IMG/VR virus record: IMGVR_UViG_3300042465_007409
Span: 1-20,147 of that record
DNA: 20,147 bases
Source: a virus
Direction: 5' to 3' (one strand)
Both the position numbers and the translations under genes were made by a program. Below the pieces are notes generated by a model that did not search any database, had not been told where the DNA came from, and saw only the letters and a list, made by a program, of their open reading frames with translations. Position 1 is the first letter of the stretch, and the number at the start of each line of letters is the position of its first letter. Below, one piece after another: positions 1 to 9,591 of the stretch.

Positions 1-13
1 ATGTGGTAAACAT
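1..13 (-). CDS. Possible start of the next cassette gene (cut by window edge)
   Basis: An ATG on the minus strand at 13-11 overlaps the TAA stop (15-13) of the GT32-like gene as TAATG. This is the same coupling seen at uvsY/uvsW and gene 44/62. Only M-F-T-T can be read before the window ends, so no product can be named. The call rests only on the overlap pattern and on the tight packing of the neighbouring genes. Confidence 0.35.
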
Positions 14-915
14 TAGTATAAATCTTTCTCAATTAAAATTTTATTTATATATTGTTGTAATAAGTAAAATTTACTTCCAGGAACTATATTTTTATTTTTA
101 AATGATGAATTATGCCAATGCCAAGTAAATGCTTCTAAAAAGAGATGTGTTTTATTTTTTAATTCTTTATCAAACCATTGAGTTTCTATCTCTGTTCCAA
201 GACCATGGTGTTTTATATTTATACACCACTCCGTGTTAAAAAAAGTTGAAGGTAGTATATTAAATTGATTATCTCTATATACATCTCTAAATAATTCTTT
301 TCCCCATGTAGTTGAATTTTTTTCTGGCATTCTTTGTATTAGCATTTTAAGAAATTTATTACCTAATTCGCTATCTTTAAATAAATTCATTACACTAGCA
401 CATGCTCCCTGATTTACAAAATCAGTTTCACTTCCCCACATGTATAAAAATTCTTGATCTATAAGAGGAGACATATCTCTCAAAAAGACAATATCCATAT
501 CTATCCAAAATCCCCCATATTTTGTACATGCCAAAAGTCGTAAAAGATCGCTTTTTAAATAATACAAACTATCTGTGGCGAATAAAAAATCATATTTTTC
601 CTCTAAAATAGTATTTTTTGATAATTCTAATGGATCATAAATTTTAAAAGTAATATAATCTTTAAATTTTTTCAATTCAGATTTATTAGAGATATCATAA
701 TCAGACCATATAATCAATCTATTATTATGATAATTTTGTGTTGCAAAAAATGATTGAACGCACAATAATTCTTTTTCAGATCTTATCTCGGAATATAAAT
801 GAAAATTTGTATTTTTATTTGATTTTATAAAATTTGTATTTTTTAAAAAATCTAAACATTTTTCATAATCTTTATATAATTCTGGATTTTTTTCAAAACT
901 TATATCAATCATCAT
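13..915 (-). CDS. GT32-type glycosyltransferase (DXD sugar-binding family)
   Basis: 300 aa. The segment around residues 123-146 (SDLLR, then KYGGFWIDMD at 132-141, then IVFLR) is the hallmark of the Gly_transf_sug / GT32 family: an SDxxR helix, a YGG turn and a DxD (D139, D141) that binds the metal and nucleotide sugar. Known members transfer GlcNAc, mannose or galactose in polysaccharide synthesis; donor and acceptor cannot be told here. There is no signal peptide or membrane segment, so it should act in the cytoplasm. It starts with two consecutive Met codons one base after the GT2 gene's stop, implying translational coupling. The gene is very AT-rich. The family call is firm; the substrate is unknown. 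Confidence 0.8.
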   Translation of the reverse strand: MMIDISFEKNPELYKDYEKCLDFLKNTNFIKSNKNTNFHLYSEIRSEKELLCVQSFFATQNYHNNRLIIWSDYDISNKSELKKFKDYITFKIYDPLELSKNTILEEKYDFLFATDSLYYLKSDLLRLLACTKYGGFWIDMDIVFLRDMSPLIDQEFLYMWGSETDFVNQGACASVMNLFKDSELGNKFLKMLIQRMPEKNSTTWGKELFRDVYRDNQFNILPSTFFNTEWCINIKHHGLGTEIETQWFDKELKNKTHLFLEAFTWHWHNSSFKNKNIVPGSKFYLLQQYINKILIEKDLY

Positions 916-916
916 A

Positions 917-1807
917 TTACCTGTTATTATAGTAATTTAATTCTTTTTTAAATCTATTATTAAAATTATTAATATTATTTTTAATTGCTTCTGGATGTGT
1001 TCCAGTGAATTTTTCTGTCTTGCATTGTCCTCTTACATGTGGTTTAAATTCATGTACACCATCAAATATTTCTTCAACTTGTAATTTTTGATCTTCGTCA
1101 CCATTGACCCAAGGCAAATATACTTTATTAAAATAATCATCTATACAATTATTTTTACTAACTGCGTCCTTATAATAAGATATTTTTTTATATACTTGTT
1201 CAGGAAAAACATAGGAATAATGATACATTTGAACACCTATTTTATCATATAATGTATTGCTATCTATATGTTTTTTTTGTATATTTAAATTATCTGGATA
1301 TTTTATCGTTGGTGGTCTATGTGTTAACCAAGTAGCTCCCTTTGTATATTTAAATATTCTTAAAAAATTATCTCTATTAAGTTCAAATCCTGTTAAAAAA
1401 TGATTGAATCCACCATAAAAAGAACAACTTCTGATGCCTACACTAGTTGGTTGTTCTTCTTTTAATAATTTAATTATTTTTTCTAAATCTTCAGTTTTAT
1501 ATACCTCATCCGAATCCAAATTCCAAATATAATCTATATCATCATTTATAAATTTCATATAAGCTTTACATTGATCATCTTTTTCATTAAATTGACCATG
1601 AATAATTTTTATTTTATTTTCTGGATCTGGAAAATCATGTAAAATTTTATTTGTATCATCTAATGATGTTGTTCTACCTTGTCGTTGCCAATAATTAACT
1701 GGCCCCTCTGAAATTAATATTTGTGTTGCAAAAGGATATACTTGTTCTAGACATTCTTTTAGAACATAATCACCTTCAAAAATTATCATTCCAAATGCTA
1801 TTTTCAT
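917..1807 (-). CDS. GT2-like glycosyltransferase
   Basis: 296 aa. The N-terminus (MKIAFGMIIFEGDYVLKECL) is a typical GT-A first strand and helix of family 2-like transferases. It is followed by an ISEGP segment near residue 33 and an acidic NLDSDE motif at 96-101, the expected DxD/DxDE metal-nucleotide-sugar site. The C-terminal half contains several Trp, Tyr and His residues likely to line an acceptor site, but I recognise no specific subfamily. No membrane helices are visible, so it looks soluble rather than a processive polymer synthase. A TTAGGAT stretch upstream overlaps the stop of the preceding gene and may serve as a weak ribosome binding site for the ATG at 1807. The exact sugar is unknown. 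Confidence 0.75.
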   Translation of the reverse strand: MKIAFGMIIFEGDYVLKECLEQVYPFATQILISEGPVNYWQRQGRTTSLDDTNKILHDFPDPENKIKIIHGQFNEKDDQCKAYMKFINDDIDYIWNLDSDEVYKTEDLEKIIKLLKEEQPTSVGIRSCSFYGGFNHFLTGFELNRDNFLRIFKYTKGATWLTHRPPTIKYPDNLNIQKKHIDSNTLYDKIGVQMYHYSYVFPEQVYKKISYYKDAVSKNNCIDDYFNKVYLPWVNGDEDQKLQVEEIFDGVHEFKPHVRGQCKTEKFTGTHPEAIKNNINNFNNRFKKELNYYNNR

Positions 1808-1815
1808 AATAAATC

Positions 1816-2694
1816 CTAACTATTATTTTTTATATCATTAAAATATTTGATACAACAATCATTCAACCATGGTACACCTGTTACATTATGTATACCATGC
1901 CTTGGTGCTACTATAAAAGTATCATTTTGTAAATTTATAGTAAAATTAGAAAAATGAATATATGTTAGTTTTTGTATATTTCCATTCCAAATAATTTTAC
2001 CATCAATTGTATATCCATGATTTTTTAAATTCCAAGGTGCTAAATGCCCAGTTTTTTCTCCAATAATTTTTATATTATTTTTATAAAGTTTATATAATAA
2101 TTCAAGATATTTTTGATCTCCGCATGTTCCGTAATCTTTAGCGTAAATATTATCTGGATTCATTACGCAATTTATCCACGTGTGTAACATTTCTCTTCCA
2201 GCTTTATCATTTTTTATGAAAACTATTCCAACATTAAATAAACCACAATTTGTTTGAACTCTGTGTTCGACTAAACCCATGGATTTATCTTCGATATCTT
2301 GATAGATAGAATCTAAAGATTCATAAAAATAAATATCAGAATCAGAATATATTATATGATCTATTTTAAATTTATTGAAACAATATTCTGGAAAATATGA
2401 TGACATTTTATAATTAAGTTCCATCTTTTTGGCACATATTCCAGTTTGTTGTTCCATTGCTATTGCTTCTTCTGATGGAATGATTTTATCAAATCTAGAA
2501 TCATCATTGATTAAATCATCAATTAATATAAATTTTATATTTTTTATTTTTTTTGATAAAGCAACTTCATAACATTCTTTATCCATGCAAAGATAATATA
2601 CAAATACATCATTATTATGTTTATTTAATGAATTAACAAGTGATAATCCACGATTTAAATAATTTATATCACTTATAGTACATACATATTTCAT
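1816..2694 (-). CDS. GT8-like (GT-A fold) glycosyltransferase
   Basis: 292 aa. It begins with a GT8-like pattern: a first strand (KYVCTISD), then a helix reading GLSLVNSLNKHN. It carries an IIYSDSDIYF motif at 115-123 whose D118-S-D120 matches the metal-binding DxD of glycogenin/LgtC-type retaining transferases. Further along are NCGLFNVGIVFIKND (149-163), DYGTCGDQKYL (187-197), GHLAPWNL (216-223) and a C-terminal HFSNF. The G-D-Q and H-x-S elements correspond in position to conserved GT8 elements. Its ATG overlaps the preceding gene's stop as ATGA. The assignment to a GT-A transferase is good, but the exact family and the donor are uncertain. Confidence 0.7.
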   Translation of the reverse strand: MKYVCTISDINYLNRGLSLVNSLNKHNNDVFVYYLCMDKECYEVALSKKIKNIKFILIDDLINDDSRFDKIIPSEEAIAMEQQTGICAKKMELNYKMSSYFPEYCFNKFKIDHIIYSDSDIYFYESLDSIYQDIEDKSMGLVEHRVQTNCGLFNVGIVFIKNDKAGREMLHTWINCVMNPDNIYAKDYGTCGDQKYLELLYKLYKNNIKIIGEKTGHLAPWNLKNHGYTIDGKIIWNGNIQKLTYIHFSNFTINLQNDTFIVAPRHGIHNVTGVPWLNDCCIKYFNDIKNNS

Positions 2695-3443
2695 AAATCA
2701 CCCATAAACACTTTCAACCAATCAACATTTGGTGATAATAGATCTCCATGTGTTGCGTATCCAGGAATTGGAGTTAGTAGTTTTCTATTTTTAATACTTG
2801 ACAATATATTGAACAATTCAAAATCTCTTGGTATTTTTTTATATGGATAGTCATCTTTATCCATTTCAACTAATTCATATTTAAATACCTCATAATCATG
2901 TCTTATTAAATCTAGTTTCATTGCAAATGTCATTGTAAATGAGTTAGAAGTTCTCCAATAATTATTTAATCCATAATAAATATTACTTTTAAAGTTATCG
3001 AAAAGATTTTGTCCTAAATCTATAAATTTATTATAATTTTTATTGAAATGATATCCATATTTTTCAGGAGAATCATATAATGACACATAATCAGCATCTA
3101 AAATATTAAATGCTTCATTTATAACTTCCCTTGATCCATTTCTATGAAGATAATCATTTTCAACAAAATACACTATATTGTCATCATGAGAACTATTCAT
3201 AGCATGTTTCATTACATAATCGAAACTAGCAGAGTTTCCTAAATTTGTTTTAATTATTTCAAAATTATACGACATAAGCCAGTTCATCGTATCATCTGTC
3301 ACATTATCAGCTACTATAAATAATTTATCTGAATTTTTTAATTCAAAATTTTTTATAAAATTATTTAAACAATTTTCATTTGTAAAATAAGAGGGAGCTT
3401 TACCTCTTCTATTTTTATCAGATAATCTATAATAAATTAGCAT
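2691..3443 (-). CDS. Putative GT-A-like glycosyltransferase, family not recognised
   Basis: 250 aa. The pattern suggests a nucleotide-sugar transferase fold: strands with ADN near residue 45, a variable middle, and VYFVENDYLH at 91-100 where an acidic END could replace DxD. This is followed by DADYVSLYDSPEKYG (116-130) and a C-terminal ATHGDLLSPNVDW, which looks like an active-site loop. I do not recognise a named Pfam family with certainty. The context supports a role in glycan assembly: it begins one base after the stop of the sugar 3-dehydratase and overlaps the next transferase by ATGA. It could instead be a non-catalytic relative. Confidence 0.55.
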   Translation of the reverse strand: MLIYYRLSDKNRRGKAPSYFTNENCLNNFIKNFELKNSDKLFIVADNVTDDTMNWLMSYNFEIIKTNLGNSASFDYVMKHAMNSSHDDNIVYFVENDYLHRNGSREVINEAFNILDADYVSLYDSPEKYGYHFNKNYNKFIDLGQNLFDNFKSNIYYGLNNYWRTSNSFTMTFAMKLDLIRHDYEVFKYELVEMDKDDYPYKKIPRDFELFNILSSIKNRKLLTPIPGYATHGDLLSPNVDWLKVFMGDL

Positions 3444-3444
3444 T

Positions 3445-4788
3445 TTAAACCCTTATGTTACTAGCCATATCAAAATATTTGTTAACTACTTCTTCAATAT
3501 AATCCAGTTGAATATCAGTTATAATAGGACTAGTACCTAGAAAAAAAGTATCTGTTGTAACTTTTGTCGCTACTGGAAAATCCATTTTAGCATTTCCTTT
3601 ATAAATTTTTTCATATGCTGGTTGTAGTAATAAATTTCCACCAAAATAATTCCTAGTTTGAATTTTATTTTGTTCTAAAAACACAGTAAAATCATTTCTT
3701 CTCATGTATACGCCATCTTTGATTGTCAAAGGAAAAGCAAACCAAGATGGATCAGAATTTTTTGTTGCGACTGGTAAATGAAATACTGATTCATATTTTT
3801 TAAATATTTTATATAGTCTATTAAAATTCTTTTTACGCAATTTAGTTATTTCATCTAGTTTTTTAATTTGCACTAAACCAATAGCGGCTTGTAGATCTAA
3901 AGGTTTTAAATTATATCCAATTTCCTCATAAACATATTTGTGATCAAAAATTGTATCTGGCATACTTGGTAGCCAATTGCTAAATCTTTTTTTACACATG
4001 CCATTTATAAGGCAAGCTGATCCTTTTCCAGTGCAATAACATCCACGACCCCATTCTCGTAAGCTTTTGATAACAGTTTCTTGGATTTCATTAGAACATG
4101 CCACAAATCCACCTTCTCCCATGCTAATATGATGTGCTGGATAAAATGAACAAGAAGCAAACTGACCAAAAGATCCAAGTAATTTATTATCATAAGTGCT
4201 GTTTAAAGCATCACAGCAATCTTCAAGTAAAATAAGATCATATTTTTCCACTATTTCCATTACTTTGTCCATATTTGGTGGATTACCTAAAACATGGGCA
4301 AATATAAGAGCTTTTGCTCCTTCTTTAGCTGCTTTTTCTAGTTGTTCTATATTTAAGTTTAATGTATTTAATTCAATATCAATAAATATTGGTATAAATG
4401 AATTTTGGATTATTGGATTTACTGTGGTCGGAAATCCAGCTACTGGAGTTATAATTTTAGTCCCAGCTGGCAAATTGTATAGTTTCTTAGATTTTAATGC
4501 ACTTATCATAAGCAAATTTGCACTAGATCCGCTATTAGTAAGTGCTCCATAGCCTTTTCCTAATTTACTATGAAATTGACGTTCAAAACGAACACCCATT
4601 TCTCCTAGAGCTAACCAGCCATTTAATAGGGTATCGATAGCCGCTATAAACTCTTCATCACCAAAATATGGTCCTGCGTATTGTACCCAGTCTTTTCCAG
4701 CTACCCATTGAGTTTTAATTGAATTTTTTAAAGATATTATTTCTTTAATTTTATTTTCAATTTGATTATTATTTGTTATTTGTATCAT
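3445..4788 (-). CDS. rfbH: [2Fe-2S], PMP-dependent NDP-4-keto-6-deoxyhexose 3-dehydratase (RfbH/DdhC/E1 type)
   Basis: 447 aa, close to full length for the family. It has the DegT/DnrJ/EryC1/StrS aminotransferase fold: TNSGSSANL (84-92) for cofactor phosphate binding, LLEDCCDALNS (187-197) with the Asp that binds the cofactor ring nitrogen, and FYPAHHISMGEGG (215-227). In that last motif His220 stands where ordinary aminotransferases have the PLP lysine, the mark of E1-type C-3 dehydratases that use PMP instead of transaminating. The Fe-S ligands are visible: C192-X57-C250-X1-C252, with C259 or C265 as fourth ligand, before KKRF. E1/RfbH makes the 3-deoxy intermediate for ascarylose, abequose, paratose or tyvelose from CDP-4-keto-6-deoxyglucose and needs a reductase partner (E3), which is not in this window. 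The gene has its own promoter-like sequence in the 38-bp gap upstream. Family firm, substrate inferred. Confidence 0.88.
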   Translation of the reverse strand: MIQITNNNQIENKIKEIISLKNSIKTQWVAGKDWVQYAGPYFGDEEFIAAIDTLLNGWLALGEMGVRFERQFHSKLGKGYGALTNSGSSANLLMISALKSKKLYNLPAGTKIITPVAGFPTTVNPIIQNSFIPIFIDIELNTLNLNIEQLEKAAKEGAKALIFAHVLGNPPNMDKVMEIVEKYDLILLEDCCDALNSTYDNKLLGSFGQFASCSFYPAHHISMGEGGFVACSNEIQETVIKSLREWGRGCYCTGKGSACLINGMCKKRFSNWLPSMPDTIFDHKYVYEEIGYNLKPLDLQAAIGLVQIKKLDEITKLRKKNFNRLYKIFKKYESVFHLPVATKNSDPSWFAFPLTIKDGVYMRRNDFTVFLEQNKIQTRNYFGGNLLLQPAYEKIYKGNAKMDFPVATKVTTDTFFLGTSPIITDIQLDYIEEVVNKYFDMASNIRV

Positions 4789-4826: not shown

Positions 4827-5609
4827 TTATTTTATAATTTCATTTAATGCTTGAAATATAGAATATTCTTTTTTATATCCACAAGAAATTAATTTTGTAT
4901 TATCTAACCACATATCTTTAATTTGTACTAGATTATGAAATTTTGGACTTTCAATTGAATTAATTGTACTATTTGACTTAATTTTGTCTTTGACATAATA
5001 AATGATATCTTTTATTTTTACTGGTTCTGAGTTAGAAATATTATAAATTTCATTTAGTTTACCATTGTCTATTACATTTTTTATAGCTTTACATGCATCA
5101 GTAACATACATGTAGTCTCTTATATGTTCACCACCATCATAAAGATGAACGTCTTGATCATTTTTAAGACAATTAATCATATATTGAATTGCATTTTTCT
5201 TCCTTGATATTTTATCATCATCATTTCCTATAATATTAGTCAGTCTTAATATTCTATAATTTATATTAAATGTTTTACAATAAGAAATTAATAATTGTTC
5301 GGCTGTTCTTTTTGTTATAGAATAAAATCCAGTTGGATTACAAATACTATTTTCATTTGCTGGTAAATCGAGTGTTTGACCATAAACAAACCATGAACTA
5401 ATAAAATTAAATGTTATTTTTTCTTTTAAGTTATATTTTTTACATTCTTCCAAAACTTCAATTAATTTTATTAAATTTGTACTTATAAAGTATAGAATTT
5501 GATTCGCTTTTGGTACATTATCATTTCTTTTATTTTCTATACAAAAATTTTTATATAGTTTTAAAAAATTACTTCCAATAAATCCACTAGAGCCATATAA
5601 ATTAATCAT
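4827..5609 (-). CDS. Short NAD(P)-dependent sugar epimerase/4-ketoreductase (extended SDR family)
   Basis: 260 aa, shorter than the usual 300-340. A Rossmann nucleotide loop is visible at 6-12 (GSSGFIG). S71/S72 sit at the catalytic Ser position, and Y96-S-I-T-K100 is the YxxxK catalytic pair. LRLTNIIGND (121-130) and GGEHIRDYMYVTD (159-171) are typical of NDP-sugar epimerases and dehydratases. The deletion lies between the first loop and the ILYFIS strand (38-43), where about two strands of the usual cofactor domain seem to be missing. Being next to an RfbH-type dehydratase suggests a 4-ketoreductase or epimerase role like abequose/paratose synthase or ascarylose reductase. A GGA lies upstream of the ATG, at most a weak ribosome binding site. 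Fold firm, reaction inferred. Confidence 0.75.
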   Translation of the reverse strand: MINLYGSSGFIGSNFLKLYKNFCIENKRNDNVPKANQILYFISTNLIKLIEVLEECKKYNLKEKITFNFISSWFVYGQTLDLPANENSICNPTGFYSITKRTAEQLLISYCKTFNINYRILRLTNIIGNDDDKISRKKNAIQYMINCLKNDQDVHLYDGGEHIRDYMYVTDACKAIKNVIDNGKLNEIYNISNSEPVKIKDIIYYVKDKIKSNSTINSIESPKFHNLVQIKDMWLDNTKLISCGYKKEYSIFQALNEIIK

Positions 5610-5633: not shown

Positions 5634-6305
5634 TTATAAAAGATAAGATTGTAAAAATTCATTTTCTTGCATATAGTTTTTGCCATGAAATCCAAAAGAG
5701 TTCATTAAAGTATGATCATCATCAATTGGAATTTCTACAGAAAATTTTCTTGCCAACTCAACTGGCGCAAAATTAATATTATTTGATTCTAAATAATTTC
5801 GTATAGTTGAGCTTATAAAAACATCTTCATTAGTTGTAAAATAAGGCATATTTGGGCCAGAAAATAAATTTATATTAGATGTTAATTTATAAAGATTTTT
5901 TGATTTTATACAAAAACCACCATTTCCAACTAAGTTTTTACCATTACACCAAGGCATTCTAGATGGCCATGGTGCTCCTATATAATCATATTTTAAATAT
6001 TCTTCATCCCATAAGTTATTATTAAAACAAAATCCATCCGTTTGGATGCACATTATTCTATCACTCGTACAATATTCATTTAATCCACTAAAAAGCATTA
6101 AATTATATTGTAAATAATTTAATGGTCCAAGATGTATAACATGAAAATCTGAATTTTTATAATTTGTATTTGGAGTTATAAAAATAATTTTATTAATTTT
6201 TAACTTAATTTCATTGAAACACTTTTTAAATAAATTTTTAATTAAATTTTCATAAGCAATGGTTTCATTACCCAAACCATCGACAACAGCTATATCTATA
6301 TTCAC
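5634..6305 (-). CDS. DUF5672-type glycosyltransferase-like protein
   Basis: 223 aa. The run CIQTDGF (86-92), NNNLWDEEYLKYDYIGAPWP (95-114) and VGNGGFCIKS (126-135) is the pattern I associate with DUF5672, a family found among polysaccharide-synthesis genes and thought to be GT-A-like. Q-T-D-G would supply the metal-binding acid, and GNGGF resembles the acceptor loop of family 7/8-like transferases. The start is GTG (6305-6303), overlapping the previous stop as GTGA; the next Met codon lies too far inside to be the start. No biochemical reaction is established for the family, so the transferase role is inference from motif layout and neighbourhood. Confidence 0.7.
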   Translation of the reverse strand: MNIDIAVVDGLGNETIAYENLIKNLFKKCFNEIKLKINKIIFITPNTNYKNSDFHVIHLGPLNYLQYNLMLFSGLNEYCTSDRIMCIQTDGFCFNNNLWDEEYLKYDYIGAPWPSRMPWCNGKNLVGNGGFCIKSKNLYKLTSNINLFSGPNMPYFTTNEDVFISSTIRNYLESNNINFAPVELARKFSVEIPIDDDHTLMNSFGFHGKNYMQENEFLQSYLL

Positions 6306-6943
6306 TTTACATCCTTTAAATTATGATGTTTTTCTGGAGCTTTCCAATAAGGACCAGGAACCACTGGTGGATTACTTCCACTTCTATATTTATGATTGTG
6401 CCAAACCTTCACGTCGTTTGCTGGATTATATACTCTATATTCAGCCTCAACGAAACACTGCATTATTCGTCCATCACATGCGTAATAACCAATTGGAAAA
6501 TCTGCATTTTTGACTTTACATTTACCTTTCCAAATCCAAACATCATTAGATTCAACGGCGGCTTTTCCATCACAATGAAACCCATTAACAAAGTAATAGT
6601 CATCTGGAGGATATGTTCTACTTATTCCTAGAGCAATATCTTCGGTCATTACTGAATCTACTAATTTAATGGTATCATCAAAATAAATATCACCATTCGC
6701 AATGATGTTTATATCATTATTTTTTGATGCTTCGAGCATATTAAAAATATTTTGATAATTTGTTCTATCTCCATATGGAAATATTTTTGTTACTTTTGTG
6801 CTAAAAACTGGAAGTTCATGGTTTGTAATTACAAATATATGATCAAATAAACCAGATAATATGTTATGCTTAATACAAAAATCAAATTCACTTTGTCTAT
6901 ATTCGTTATTAGTTTTTACATATTCAACAAATAGATTTTTCAT
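6302..6943 (-). CDS. Putative GT-A-like glycosyltransferase
   Basis: 213 aa. It has a likely DxD-type site in IIANGDIYFDD (80-90). It then has SNDVWIWKGK (132-141), DFPIGYYACDGRI (148-160), NPANDVKVWHNH (173-184) and a short Pro-rich C-terminus. The succession of an acidic strand, a V-W-I-W-K strand, a G-xx-x-C-D-x-R-I helix start and an N-P-x-x-x-x-x-x-x-H-x-H end resembles a group of small transferase-like proteins found with polysaccharide genes, but I cannot name the family. It overlaps the neighbouring gene by ATGA, so it is co-translated with the paralogous pair. No signal peptide or membrane segment. Confidence 0.55.
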   Translation of the reverse strand: MKNLFVEYVKTNNEYRQSEFDFCIKHNILSGLFDHIFVITNHELPVFSTKVTKIFPYGDRTNYQNIFNMLEASKNNDINIIANGDIYFDDTIKLVDSVMTEDIALGISRTYPPDDYYFVNGFHCDGKAAVESNDVWIWKGKCKVKNADFPIGYYACDGRIMQCFVEAEYRVYNPANDVKVWHNHKYRSGSNPPVVPGPYWKAPEKHHNLKDVK

Positions 6944-7608
6944 TTTATTGTACCATTGTGTGTATAAAACGTCTTACGAATCGCTTCACCAGCTATTCTT
7001 TGTGCATTATGTCCCATATCAACTAATCCTTGAATTTTGGATTCTCCAGATGAAATTCCCATTGTTATTATTGGCTTTCTATCAGTAAAATTAGTATCAG
7101 CAAACGCACAATACTGTTGTCCTACCATTCCTAGACTTATATTTGATTCTTTCAAAACTTCTAATAGTATTTCATGATCAAAGAATTGCTTTGATGTTTG
7201 TAAATAATGCTCACAACGATTAATCCACATGTCAATAAAATTTTTAACAGTAGAGTTATTTTTCATGAAAATTGGAGAAGCTTTTGGTATATACTCTCCA
7301 TACTGATTCATACTGTTTGTAGATAAAATCACATCAACATTGGTATGATCTATTATATCGATAGAACTATGAACTTTGCTATCTATATCTAACCATATCA
7401 GAGAAGTATCAAATTTTTCTAGACACTTTTTTATGAATTTTGGTTTAAATAAACAATTATTTCTATAACTACCAAGTGATACTATATGCTCAACATAATA
7501 ATCTATGTTTAATTCTTGCATATTTTCTATAAATTTTTTTGCGTGATCTGTGTAATAAGTATCATTTTCGTCCACATCACAATAATAAGAAATGACTTTT
7601 GTATTCAT
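6940..7608 (-). CDS. DxD nucleotide-sugar transferase-like protein, paralogue B
   Basis: 222 aa. It is clearly related to the gene immediately upstream. Both share an N-terminal VISxYxDVD...YYxDHA, then GxYRxNCLxKPxFI, WLDxDS (here W72-S77, with D74 and D76 as a DxD), PKASPI, FDHExLL and PxITMGxxxGESK. The WLDxDS strand at residues 70-77 fits a GT-A donor site. I do not know a named family with certainty, though GT77-like nucleotide-diphospho-sugar transferases are possible. Its ATG overlaps paralogue A's stop as ATGA. Divergence from paralogue A is high in the C-terminal third, so the two probably use different donors or acceptors. Confidence 0.6.
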   Translation of the reverse strand: MNTKVISYYCDVDENDTYYTDHAKKFIENMQELNIDYYVEHIVSLGSYRNNCLFKPKFIKKCLEKFDTSLIWLDIDSKVHSSIDIIDHTNVDVILSTNSMNQYGEYIPKASPIFMKNNSTVKNFIDMWINRCEHYLQTSKQFFDHEILLEVLKESNISLGMVGQQYCAFADTNFTDRKPIITMGISSGESKIQGLVDMGHNAQRIAGEAIRKTFYTHNGTIK

Positions 7609-8288
7609 TGATTCACCAAAAACTTATTTCCTGGGCTTTGAAATTTAATATTGTGTTCATCAAAACCCATGTTTCTCAATACCTGTTCTTTTGATTCTCC
7701 ATCCGCTAATCCCATTGTAATTACTGGTTCTCCACCATGAATTGATATACCAGGCCAAACACAATAAGCATTTCCTAAAAAAGCCATACGAACACCAGTA
7801 TTCTCGTTTATCATTTTCATGAATATCTTTAACAAAACTTCATGATCAAATGCAATATTTGCTTGTCGTTCTAATTCTTCACTTGCCTCAATCCAAGCAT
7901 ATATAAATTCATAAGATTTTGGTGTTTGATTTAAGTAAATTGGTGATGCTTTTGGCATACCAATAGTTGGATCTTCCTTTGTAGGAACTTTAGGAAATGC
8001 CATAGCTAAATCAACTTTATCGTGAAACTCATCAAAAACTTCAAGAGGTTTATGTACAATTGAATCTACATCTAACCAAACAAGTGGTGTTCTTAATTCA
8101 TTCATCATCTCAAGAATAAATCTCGGTTTTGATAAACAATTAGAGCGATAATTTCCCTTTGATGGTTTATGTCTAATAAAGTTTGGTATGGAATGTTCCT
8201 CAAGATTTTTTTTCAATCTTGTGGCGTGATCGCTATAATAAGTACGACCATCTACGTCAGCATAAAAAGAAATCACAGGTGTCTTCAT
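7605..8288 (-). CDS. DxD nucleotide-sugar transferase-like protein, paralogue A
   Basis: 227 aa. The order of motifs matches paralogue B: VISFYADVDG (5-14), YYSDHA (17-22), GNYRSNCLSKPRFI (45-58), WLDVDS (71-76), MPKASPIY, FDHEVLL and EPVITMGLADGESK. WLDVDS is the predicted metal and nucleotide-sugar DxD; FDHE probably supplies a further catalytic or structural acid. A TATAAATA late-promoter-like octamer ends 7 bases before the ATG, and no good Shine-Dalgarno sequence is visible. The pair looks like an old tandem duplication. Soluble, cytoplasmic. Function as a glycosyltransferase is inferred from the DxD strand and the neighbourhood. Confidence 0.62.
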   Translation of the reverse strand: MKTPVISFYADVDGRTYYSDHATRLKKNLEEHSIPNFIRHKPSKGNYRSNCLSKPRFILEMMNELRTPLVWLDVDSIVHKPLEVFDEFHDKVDLAMAFPKVPTKEDPTIGMPKASPIYLNQTPKSYEFIYAWIEASEELERQANIAFDHEVLLKIFMKMINENTGVRMAFLGNAYCVWPGISIHGGEPVITMGLADGESKEQVLRNMGFDEHNIKFQSPGNKFLVNQ

Positions 8289-8295
8289 GGTCTAG

Positions 8296-8303
8296 TATTT
8301 ATA
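8296..8303 (-). promoter_or_regulatory. T4 late-promoter-like octamer TATAAATA
   Basis: An exact TATAAATA, the T4 late -10 element read by gp55, followed by CTA. It overlaps the stop of the GT10-like gene and ends 7 bases before the ATG of paralogue A, so transcripts would have almost no leader. The same octamer also turns up by chance inside AT-rich coding sequence (for example at 42-49), so position is the main support. Confidence 0.3.
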
Positions 8304-9141
8304 ATTGTTTTATCATGTGATAAAGAATGTCATCTGCATTCTCTAATTTTTTCACACGTTCAAAATTATGTTTAATTGCATCCATCTTACTATAATATAA
8401 TTCTTCTGTTAATTGGGATGGATCAAATGATGAATCAAGTGTAATGATTCCTTCTGAATTGAAATAATTACCGACATCAGGTGTACCCCAATATACAGGT
8501 ATTGTTCCAGTTGCAAAACAGTCTGTTAATTTTTCTGTAAAGTAAGTTGGATACTTATCATTTTCAATAACAATTGAAAACATATATGGATTCAAGGCAC
8601 GACTTTTATCTCCCCAAGGTCGTTTCTCATATCCAAATCTTTGTGATCCTAATACACCACCATATAAATCAACTTTATCTTTCCATTTGTCTGCCAAAGC
8701 ATGACGAACTTGATGACCTATTGTTGCTTGTTTTGGTGATGCTATTAGAGATACTAATTTATTCTTTTCAAATATTTGTTGATCTTCTATCCAAGGAAGG
8801 TTACTTCCAGCAAACGAGAAATGTAATTTTTTATTTTTGCTGCAAAATGTCCTATCAGAAAAATAAACAGCATCATAGCTGTCACAAATCCGTTCAAGAT
8901 GTTTTTCAAATAAATCTTTAGGAAAATTAAATTCATAAAATATCGCCCTTGATTCACAAATCCATGCTATCTTTTTTTCGTTAGGCTTCTTTACGTAATT
9001 TATTCCATGTGAAATAGCTGCATCTATAAAAACCTTGATATTGCTATCTTCTTTCGTCCATGAAAATAATTTAGGTTTCTTGTCAGAACAGGAAGACTGA
9101 TCTGTATTAAACGGTGCTCCAATTGCTTGCATTATATCCAT
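8299..9141 (-). CDS. GT10 fucosyltransferase-like glycosyltransferase
   Basis: 280 aa. The C-terminal half carries the family-10 signature: FSIVIENDKYPTYFTEKL (188-205) followed by DCFATGTIPVYWGTPDVGNYF (207-227). In alpha-1,3-fucosyltransferases the matching FxxxxENxxxxxYxTEKL segment binds the GDP-sugar. A preceding LVSLIASPKQ (129-138) and HQVRHALADKW (143-153) match the usual start of the C-terminal domain. The N-terminal domain includes ICESRAIF (61-68). Known members transfer fucose or, in some bacteria, other deoxysugars, which fits a cassette that also makes a deoxysugar. It is the first sugar gene after regA. Both the ATG at 9141 and an in-frame ATG three codons on are possible starts. 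Confidence 0.78.
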   Translation of the reverse strand: MDIMQAIGAPFNTDQSSCSDKKPKLFSWTKEDSNIKVFIDAAISHGINYVKKPNEKKIAWICESRAIFYEFNFPKDLFEKHLERICDSYDAVYFSDRTFCSKNKKLHFSFAGSNLPWIEDQQIFEKNKLVSLIASPKQATIGHQVRHALADKWKDKVDLYGGVLGSQRFGYEKRPWGDKSRALNPYMFSIVIENDKYPTYFTEKLTDCFATGTIPVYWGTPDVGNYFNSEGIITLDSSFDPSQLTEELYYSKMDAIKHNFERVKKLENADDILYHMIKQL

Positions 9142-9583: not shown

Positions 9584-9591
9584 TATTTATA
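9584..9591 (-). promoter_or_regulatory. T4 late-promoter-like octamer TATAAATA upstream of regA
   Basis: Exact TATAAATA in the 30-base gap between genes 62 and regA, ending 22 bases before the regA ATG. This spacing would leave a leader that contains the GGAG. A late promoter for regA and the sugar cassette is possible, but the surrounding sequence is nearly all A and T. Confidence 0.35.

Follow-up and report, generated by a model that had tools for sequence, protein, structure and literature searches.

The viral DNA analysed here, an IMG/VR record of 20,147 nucleotides referred to as the window, carries an intact gene for a phage iron–sulfur enzyme that, judging from its sequence, very probably strips a nucleotide sugar of its 3-hydroxyl, a step known from bacterial O-antigen synthesis. 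We consider it quite likely that this protein is an E1/RfbH-type PMP/[2Fe-2S] NDP-4-keto-6-deoxyhexose 3-dehydratase belonging to a viral sister clade of the bacterial enzymes, with a short-chain dehydrogenase (SDR) and glycosyltransferases completing its work. The window encodes a core of T4-type genes, including major head protein, tail tube, UvsY-like protein, UvsW-type helicase, late sigma factor, gp46/47-type nuclease, clamp, clamp loaders and RegA-type repressor, and therefore derives from a T4-like phage. The features that bear on the dehydratase are:

3445..4788, minus strand (4788→3445): rfbH-type gene, 447 aa, open reading frame intact
4129..4134, minus strand: codons for His219-His220, of which His219 aligns with E1 H220
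3988..4041, minus strand: ligand loop C250-Y-C252...C265-K-K, residues 250-267 (coordinates derived from residue numbers)
4827..5609, minus strand: short NAD-dependent SDR, type B, 260 aa, directly upstream of rfbH (Pfam Epimerase, 103.4 bits)
2691..3443, minus strand: 250-aa protein directly downstream of rfbH, with no Pfam or PHROG match
13..2694, minus strand: three proteins, two with glycosyltransferase Pfam matches (Gly_transf_sug; Glycos_transf_2)
5634..9141, minus strand: upstream glycan genes by Pfam, namely a DUF5672 protein, three proteins without assignment and a GT10-type fucosyltransferase-like protein (8299-9141)

Profile search of the window protein against the RfbH equivalog NCBIfam NF011936 returned 471.6 bits (cut-off 423, E = 2e-141), and the nearest solved relative by HMMER is the Yersinia E1 dehydrase 3bcx (E 6.7e-107), with ColD ranking after both E1 entries; a profile E value of 2e-141 together with an E1 match of about 1e-106 rules out chance. 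An AlphaFold model of the protein (mean pLDDT 83.8, pTM 0.84) likewise found E1 as its best Foldseek match in the PDB (E 1.8e-37, 38% identity), followed by ColD. The protein belongs to Pfam family PF01041 (DegT/DnrJ), which is common to sugar aminotransferases, and carries the PHROG label 'aminotransferase', yet an ordinary DegT/DnrJ sugar aminotransferase is a highly improbable identity: His219 occupies the site of the catalytic lysine, all four E1 cysteines are present, and aminotransferase equivalogs score far below threshold (best PseC, 139 against a cut-off of 423.5). Nor is the protein of ColD type, since it has the cluster cysteines and does not group with ColD. By sequence, fold and tree the window protein lies nearer E1 than ColD or aminotransferases; when the loop is removed before tree building, it does not fall among the bacterial proteins that include E1. 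The earlier note on this DNA had proposed an E1/RfbH-type Fe-S/PMP sugar 3-dehydratase in a phage and named grouping with plain aminotransferases as evidence against it; the proposal holds, and the protein groups with E1. The note had given no strand for the gene, which lies on the minus one.

Alignment with E1 places the catalytic residues with one correction. E1 numbering equals that of the window protein plus one around the paired histidines (HMMER alignment), so that E1 H220 corresponds to His219, and the chain of 3bb8, the E1 H220K mutant, reads PAKHI, identifying the mutated residue as the first His of the pair. By this alignment it is His219 that stands in for the PLP lysine; the assignment of this role to His220 had been off by one, and His220 is its neighbour, likewise invariant. 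The window protein contains cysteines at 191, 192, 213, 231, 250, 252, 259 and 265, confirming the C192-X57-C250-X1-C252 pattern described earlier, followed by X6 to C259 and X12 to C265. The E1 chain has C193, C251, C253 and C261, which, given the cysteine positions in the PDB chain, we take to be its cluster ligands, and a spare C257 within the X7 stretch that is comparable to C259. C261, the CKKRF cysteine of E1, lines up with C265. The longer final spacing had been attributed to a short insertion; relative to E1 the insertion measures five residues, between CxC and CKKRF. In an alignment of 42 viral relatives, C192, H219, H220, C250, C252 and C265 are invariant and C259 is variable; across viral loci the CKKRF-type Cys is kept in 80 of 80, and the C259 position is replaced in many. 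We therefore favour C265, at X12, as the fourth ligand, and propose C192, C250, C252 and C265 as the cluster ligands on this sequence evidence. The earlier note had left X6 and X12 both in play and looked to alignment and structure prediction to decide: alignment did so in favour of X12, eliminating C259 as unconserved among viral relatives, whereas the AlphaFold model cannot place the ligands because pLDDT is below 50 in the loop (residues 246-274 and 279-293 of loop 246-293). A further cysteine, C213, sits beside the SFYPAHH motif, near the active site by sequence; it is invariant in the 42-row viral alignment and is Val in E1.

The extended loop marks a large group of viral proteins. A search of IMG/VR with patterns from the window protein collected at least 153 viral contigs with relatives, and in the 80 of 153 loci that were read, every viral homologue of the E1/RfbH clade has X11 or X12 between CxC and C..RF. 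The same spacing occurs in marine virus AG-345-D19, cyanophage S-B05 and a 642-kb phage at ~41-43% identity; a phage collection search returned 73 records, most of them from cyanophages with lower identity, and many of these proteins resemble ColD or aminotransferases and not E1. Bacterial RfbH proteins were sampled from three phyla (395 Bacteroidota, 398 Pseudomonadota and 294 Planctomycetota genomes), and X7 was found in Bacteroidota and Pseudomonadota sequences (55 by exact motif and 4 ending C..RY or C..RH) and in 18 Planctomycetota sequences. E1 itself reads C-X57-C-X1-C-X7-C, of which the window protein matches X57 and X1 and has X12 as its last spacing; exact X7 is a trait of the bacterial clade and no requirement of the RfbH profile. 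When outgroups are included, the tree unites the window protein with 35 viral rows and one Pirellula row (SH-aLRT 99), and the sister of this group is a 67-row X7 group holding E1; the X11/X12 versus X7 split is supported at 100/100 in a tree built without the loop. These trees lead us to place the window protein in a large, virus-associated clade that is sister to bacterial RfbH and is distinguished by its CxC-X11/12-C loop.

The idea that bacteria commonly have the extended loop was rejected, as this form is absent from the E1/RfbH clade in the sampled Bacteroidota, Pseudomonadota and Planctomycetota apart from one Pirellula cassette. This cassette, the only full bacterial X11 case in the three phyla, lies in a metagenome-assembled genome (MAG; L093:500-3900) and comprises an X11 rfbH, a B-type SDR and an RmlB-type dehydratase. 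Its GC content is 34-46%, against 52-59% in the adjoining planctomycete sequence, and a transposase-like fragment lies beside it, so it seems recently transferred and was apparently acquired from, or is common to, phages; the same genome also carries its own X7 RfbH. On a 3.2-kb Flavobacteriales MAG contig (L094) the sequence ends before the loop. Also set aside was a distant group from Planctomycetota, whose CKCxxC...C motif has X11 spacing: it lacks the first ligand Cys and falls outside the E1/RfbH clade. A Planctomycetota DegT-fold group (L193, L196-L199) has one His at the lysine site and a cluster-like CKCxxC-X8-C motif without the first ligand Cys, and is possibly a separate Fe-S or Zn subfamily. 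An X7 rfbH labelled 'Salmonella phage' (L204, OR851175.1) was also discarded, being an unverified 2.6-kb low-coverage contig that is probably host DNA.

Viral and bacterial rfbH genes keep different company. CDP-glucose 4,6-dehydratase (RfbG) scores above cut-off in all 30 RfbH-bearing bacterial genomes, usually adjoining rfbH, versus 0 of 39 viral records, which are mostly fragments but include two of 160-168 kb. These 39 records also contain no E3-type FAD domain (FAD_binding_6); as most are fragments, such genes could lie beyond their ends or be encoded by the host. No Fer2 domain was found in 24 viral records, which argues against a phage ferredoxin as electron donor. The sugar genes that do adjoin viral rfbH are of other kinds. 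Among 44 non-redundant viral loci, rfbH lies directly behind an RmlB-type 4,6-dehydratase, A2, in 9, where a B-type SDR nearly always comes first, and directly behind a B-type SDR in 4, the window included; in further loci its neighbour is Gmd or a different RmlB-type gene. The STDEVYG motif is conserved in A2 and in the related type A, both of which reach 302-325 bits against the dTDP-glucose dehydratase model (cut-off 365) and 59-68 against the CDP-glucose model, and the top solved relatives of A2 are all dTDP-glucose 4,6-dehydratases. One viral Gmd next to rfbH reaches 528.6 bits (cut-off 415), and two relatives of the window locus (L006 and L008) have the order B-rfbH-Gmd. One viral record encodes a nucleotidyltransferase nearest RmlA, at 320 bits (cut-off 360.65) compared with 27 bits for cytidylyltransferase. 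Large aquatic phages often carry RmlB- and Gmd-type genes, so simple co-occurrence is weak evidence and adjacent operons alone count. Within the 20,147-base window we saw no 4,6-dehydratase. Some viral rfbH clusters (L001:2177-9347, L013-L017, L073-L080) contain an acetolactate-synthase-like TPP enzyme, sometimes with NeuB-like, HpaI-aldolase-like or AroB-related proteins, and it is conceivable that these make a branched-chain sugar, as in yersiniose synthesis.

These neighbourhoods bear on two alternatives. The phage protein could be a standard RfbH/E1 that draws its CDP-4-keto-6-deoxyglucose from RfbF and RfbG of the host and its electrons from the host's E3. It would then assist a host whose O-antigen already contains a 3,6-dideoxyhexose, and the long loop would reflect neutral drift. 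It passes the RfbH cut-off, and its partners could be host-encoded given fragmentary viral records; however, RfbG is missing from all 39 viral records and present in all 30 bacteria, viral rfbH shares operons with an RmlB-type dehydratase or Gmd, the same rfbH, B, A cassette recurs in Pirellula, and the loop is fixed throughout the viral clade, leaving this explanation unlikely. The substrate assumed in the activity test suggested earlier, CDP-4-keto-6-deoxyglucose, and an E3 partner find no support in the genes linked to viral rfbH. Alternatively, the enzyme could resemble ColD, or SpnQ deprived of its reductase, with PMP/PLP regenerated by glutamate and the cluster structural only or absent. 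The lack of E3-type FAD and Fer2 domains in the 39 and 24 records fits this reading, as do the transaminase activity of SpnQ without reductase (PMC8987622) and the frequent proximity of Gmd to viral rfbH, as in the colitose pathway. We nevertheless judge it improbable, since members of the viral clade all keep the four cluster cysteines, which ColD lacks, and the tree places the window protein with E1.

Our preferred reading remains a reductive 3-dehydratase. By homology, PMP would form a Schiff base to the 4-keto group of an NDP-4-keto-6-deoxyhexose, and His219 would remove a proton from PMP C4′ as the C3 hydroxyl leaves. E1, ColD and SpnQ all form the Schiff base, rely on His to expel the C3 hydroxyl and pass through a 3,4-hexoseen intermediate, which E1 reduces with E3, SpnQ reduces with ferredoxin or flavodoxin systems and ColD hydrolyses without a cluster (PMC8987622). 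Because the four cysteines are invariant, reduction of the E1/SpnQ type is most likely for the phage enzyme: two electrons, perhaps supplied by host reductases, would pass through a cluster on C192, C250, C252 and C265 and reduce the intermediate to a 4-keto-3,6-dideoxy sugar. As E3 and CDP-sugar genes are lacking in the viral records, the gene content favours general donors, used as in SpnQ, and a substrate linked to dTDP or GDP, and we give a substrate that is not CDP-linked about an even chance. More tentatively, and at somewhat less than even probability, the viral X11/X12 clade may be functionally distinct, using dTDP- or GDP-4-keto-6-deoxyhexoses from phage RmlB- or Gmd-type dehydratases, with a loop that suits host ferredoxins over E3, in a 3,6-dideoxy-sugar route undescribed in bacteria.

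Genes around rfbH could complete the pathway. The SDR at 4827-5609 lacks the TDE motif of 4,6-dehydratases and is likely a 4-keto reductase or epimerase that finishes the sugar, consistent with the B-type SDRs that adjoin viral rfbH in many loci; it would reduce or epimerise the 4-keto sugar, which surrounding glycosyltransferases would attach to a phage or host glycan. From its position, the 250-aa protein at 2691..3443 is possibly one of these glycosyltransferases. Two adjacent paralogues (6940-7608 and 7605-8288) are probably duplicated glycosyltransferase-like proteins. The late-promoter motif TATAAATA has six matches in the window, not above chance, and sigma-70-like promoters there are not above chance either; T4 late-promoter-like copies of TATAAATA on the minus strand lie in very short intergenic gaps at 8296-8303, before the 7605-8288 gene, and at 9584-9591, before regA. 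The window gave no match to anti-phage defence families.

Phage carriage of rfbH is already known: a published inventory of viral auxiliary genes includes rfbH/ascC/ddhC (PMC10653327). Together with the IMG/VR relatives, at least 153, and the named cyanophages, this overturns the view that such a gene is unusual in a phage. In the literature searched, which left most subscription journals outside its scope, neither the viral loop clade nor the partner-gene switch turned up, so that the X11/X12 clade and its different partner enzymes seem new. Automatic annotation names such viral genes CDP-4-keto-6-deoxyglucose 3-dehydratase, and their gene neighbours suggest that the nucleotide may be wrong. 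If dTDP or GDP sugars and general electron donors are indeed used, phages possess their own version of a rare iron–sulfur/B6 reaction, which would bear on the remodelling of host or virion glycans by aquatic phages and supply a natural point of comparison for the coupling between cluster loop and reductase.

Compared with known systems, the window protein has the fold and catalytic His of E1/AscC (CDP-6-deoxy-L-threo-D-glycero-4-hexulose-3-dehydrase, Yersinia pseudotuberculosis, 3bcx/3bb8), with H220 matching H219 and C193/C251/C253/C261 matching C192/C250/C252/C265, but is about 38% identical, has a last spacing of X12 versus X7, and comes from viruses in which neither E3 nor the CDP-glucose enzymes that E1 uses were found (39 records, mostly fragments). 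It shares catalytic and cluster residues with RfbH/DdhC of bacterial O-antigen operons and passes the NF011936 cut-off, yet lies in a sister clade (100/100) to bacterial members that, as sampled, are all X7 and occur with CDP-glucose 4,6-dehydratase in the genome where tested. ColD (GDP-4-keto-6-deoxy-D-mannose 3-dehydratase, 2gms) has the fold, the His for Lys exchange and C3 deoxygenation in common with it, and Gmd also occurs near viral rfbH; by contrast, ColD lacks the cluster cysteines, is about 29% identical and is more distant in sequence and tree. SpnQ (dTDP-4-keto-2,6-dideoxyglucose 3-dehydrase, spinosyn), likened here by description and not by sequence, is a precedent for a [2Fe-2S]/PMP 3-dehydratase that acts on a dTDP sugar with ferredoxin or flavodoxin and not E3 (PMC8987622), although its substrate is a 2,6-dideoxy sugar. 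The closest viral parallels with names are Synechococcus phages S-H68, S-B05, S-B43 and RB11-B, whose homologues are only about 41% identical to the window protein but fall in the same viral clade, with an X11 loop in S-B05 and a copy in S-H68 already annotated as CDP-4-dehydro-6-deoxy-D-glucose 3-dehydratase.
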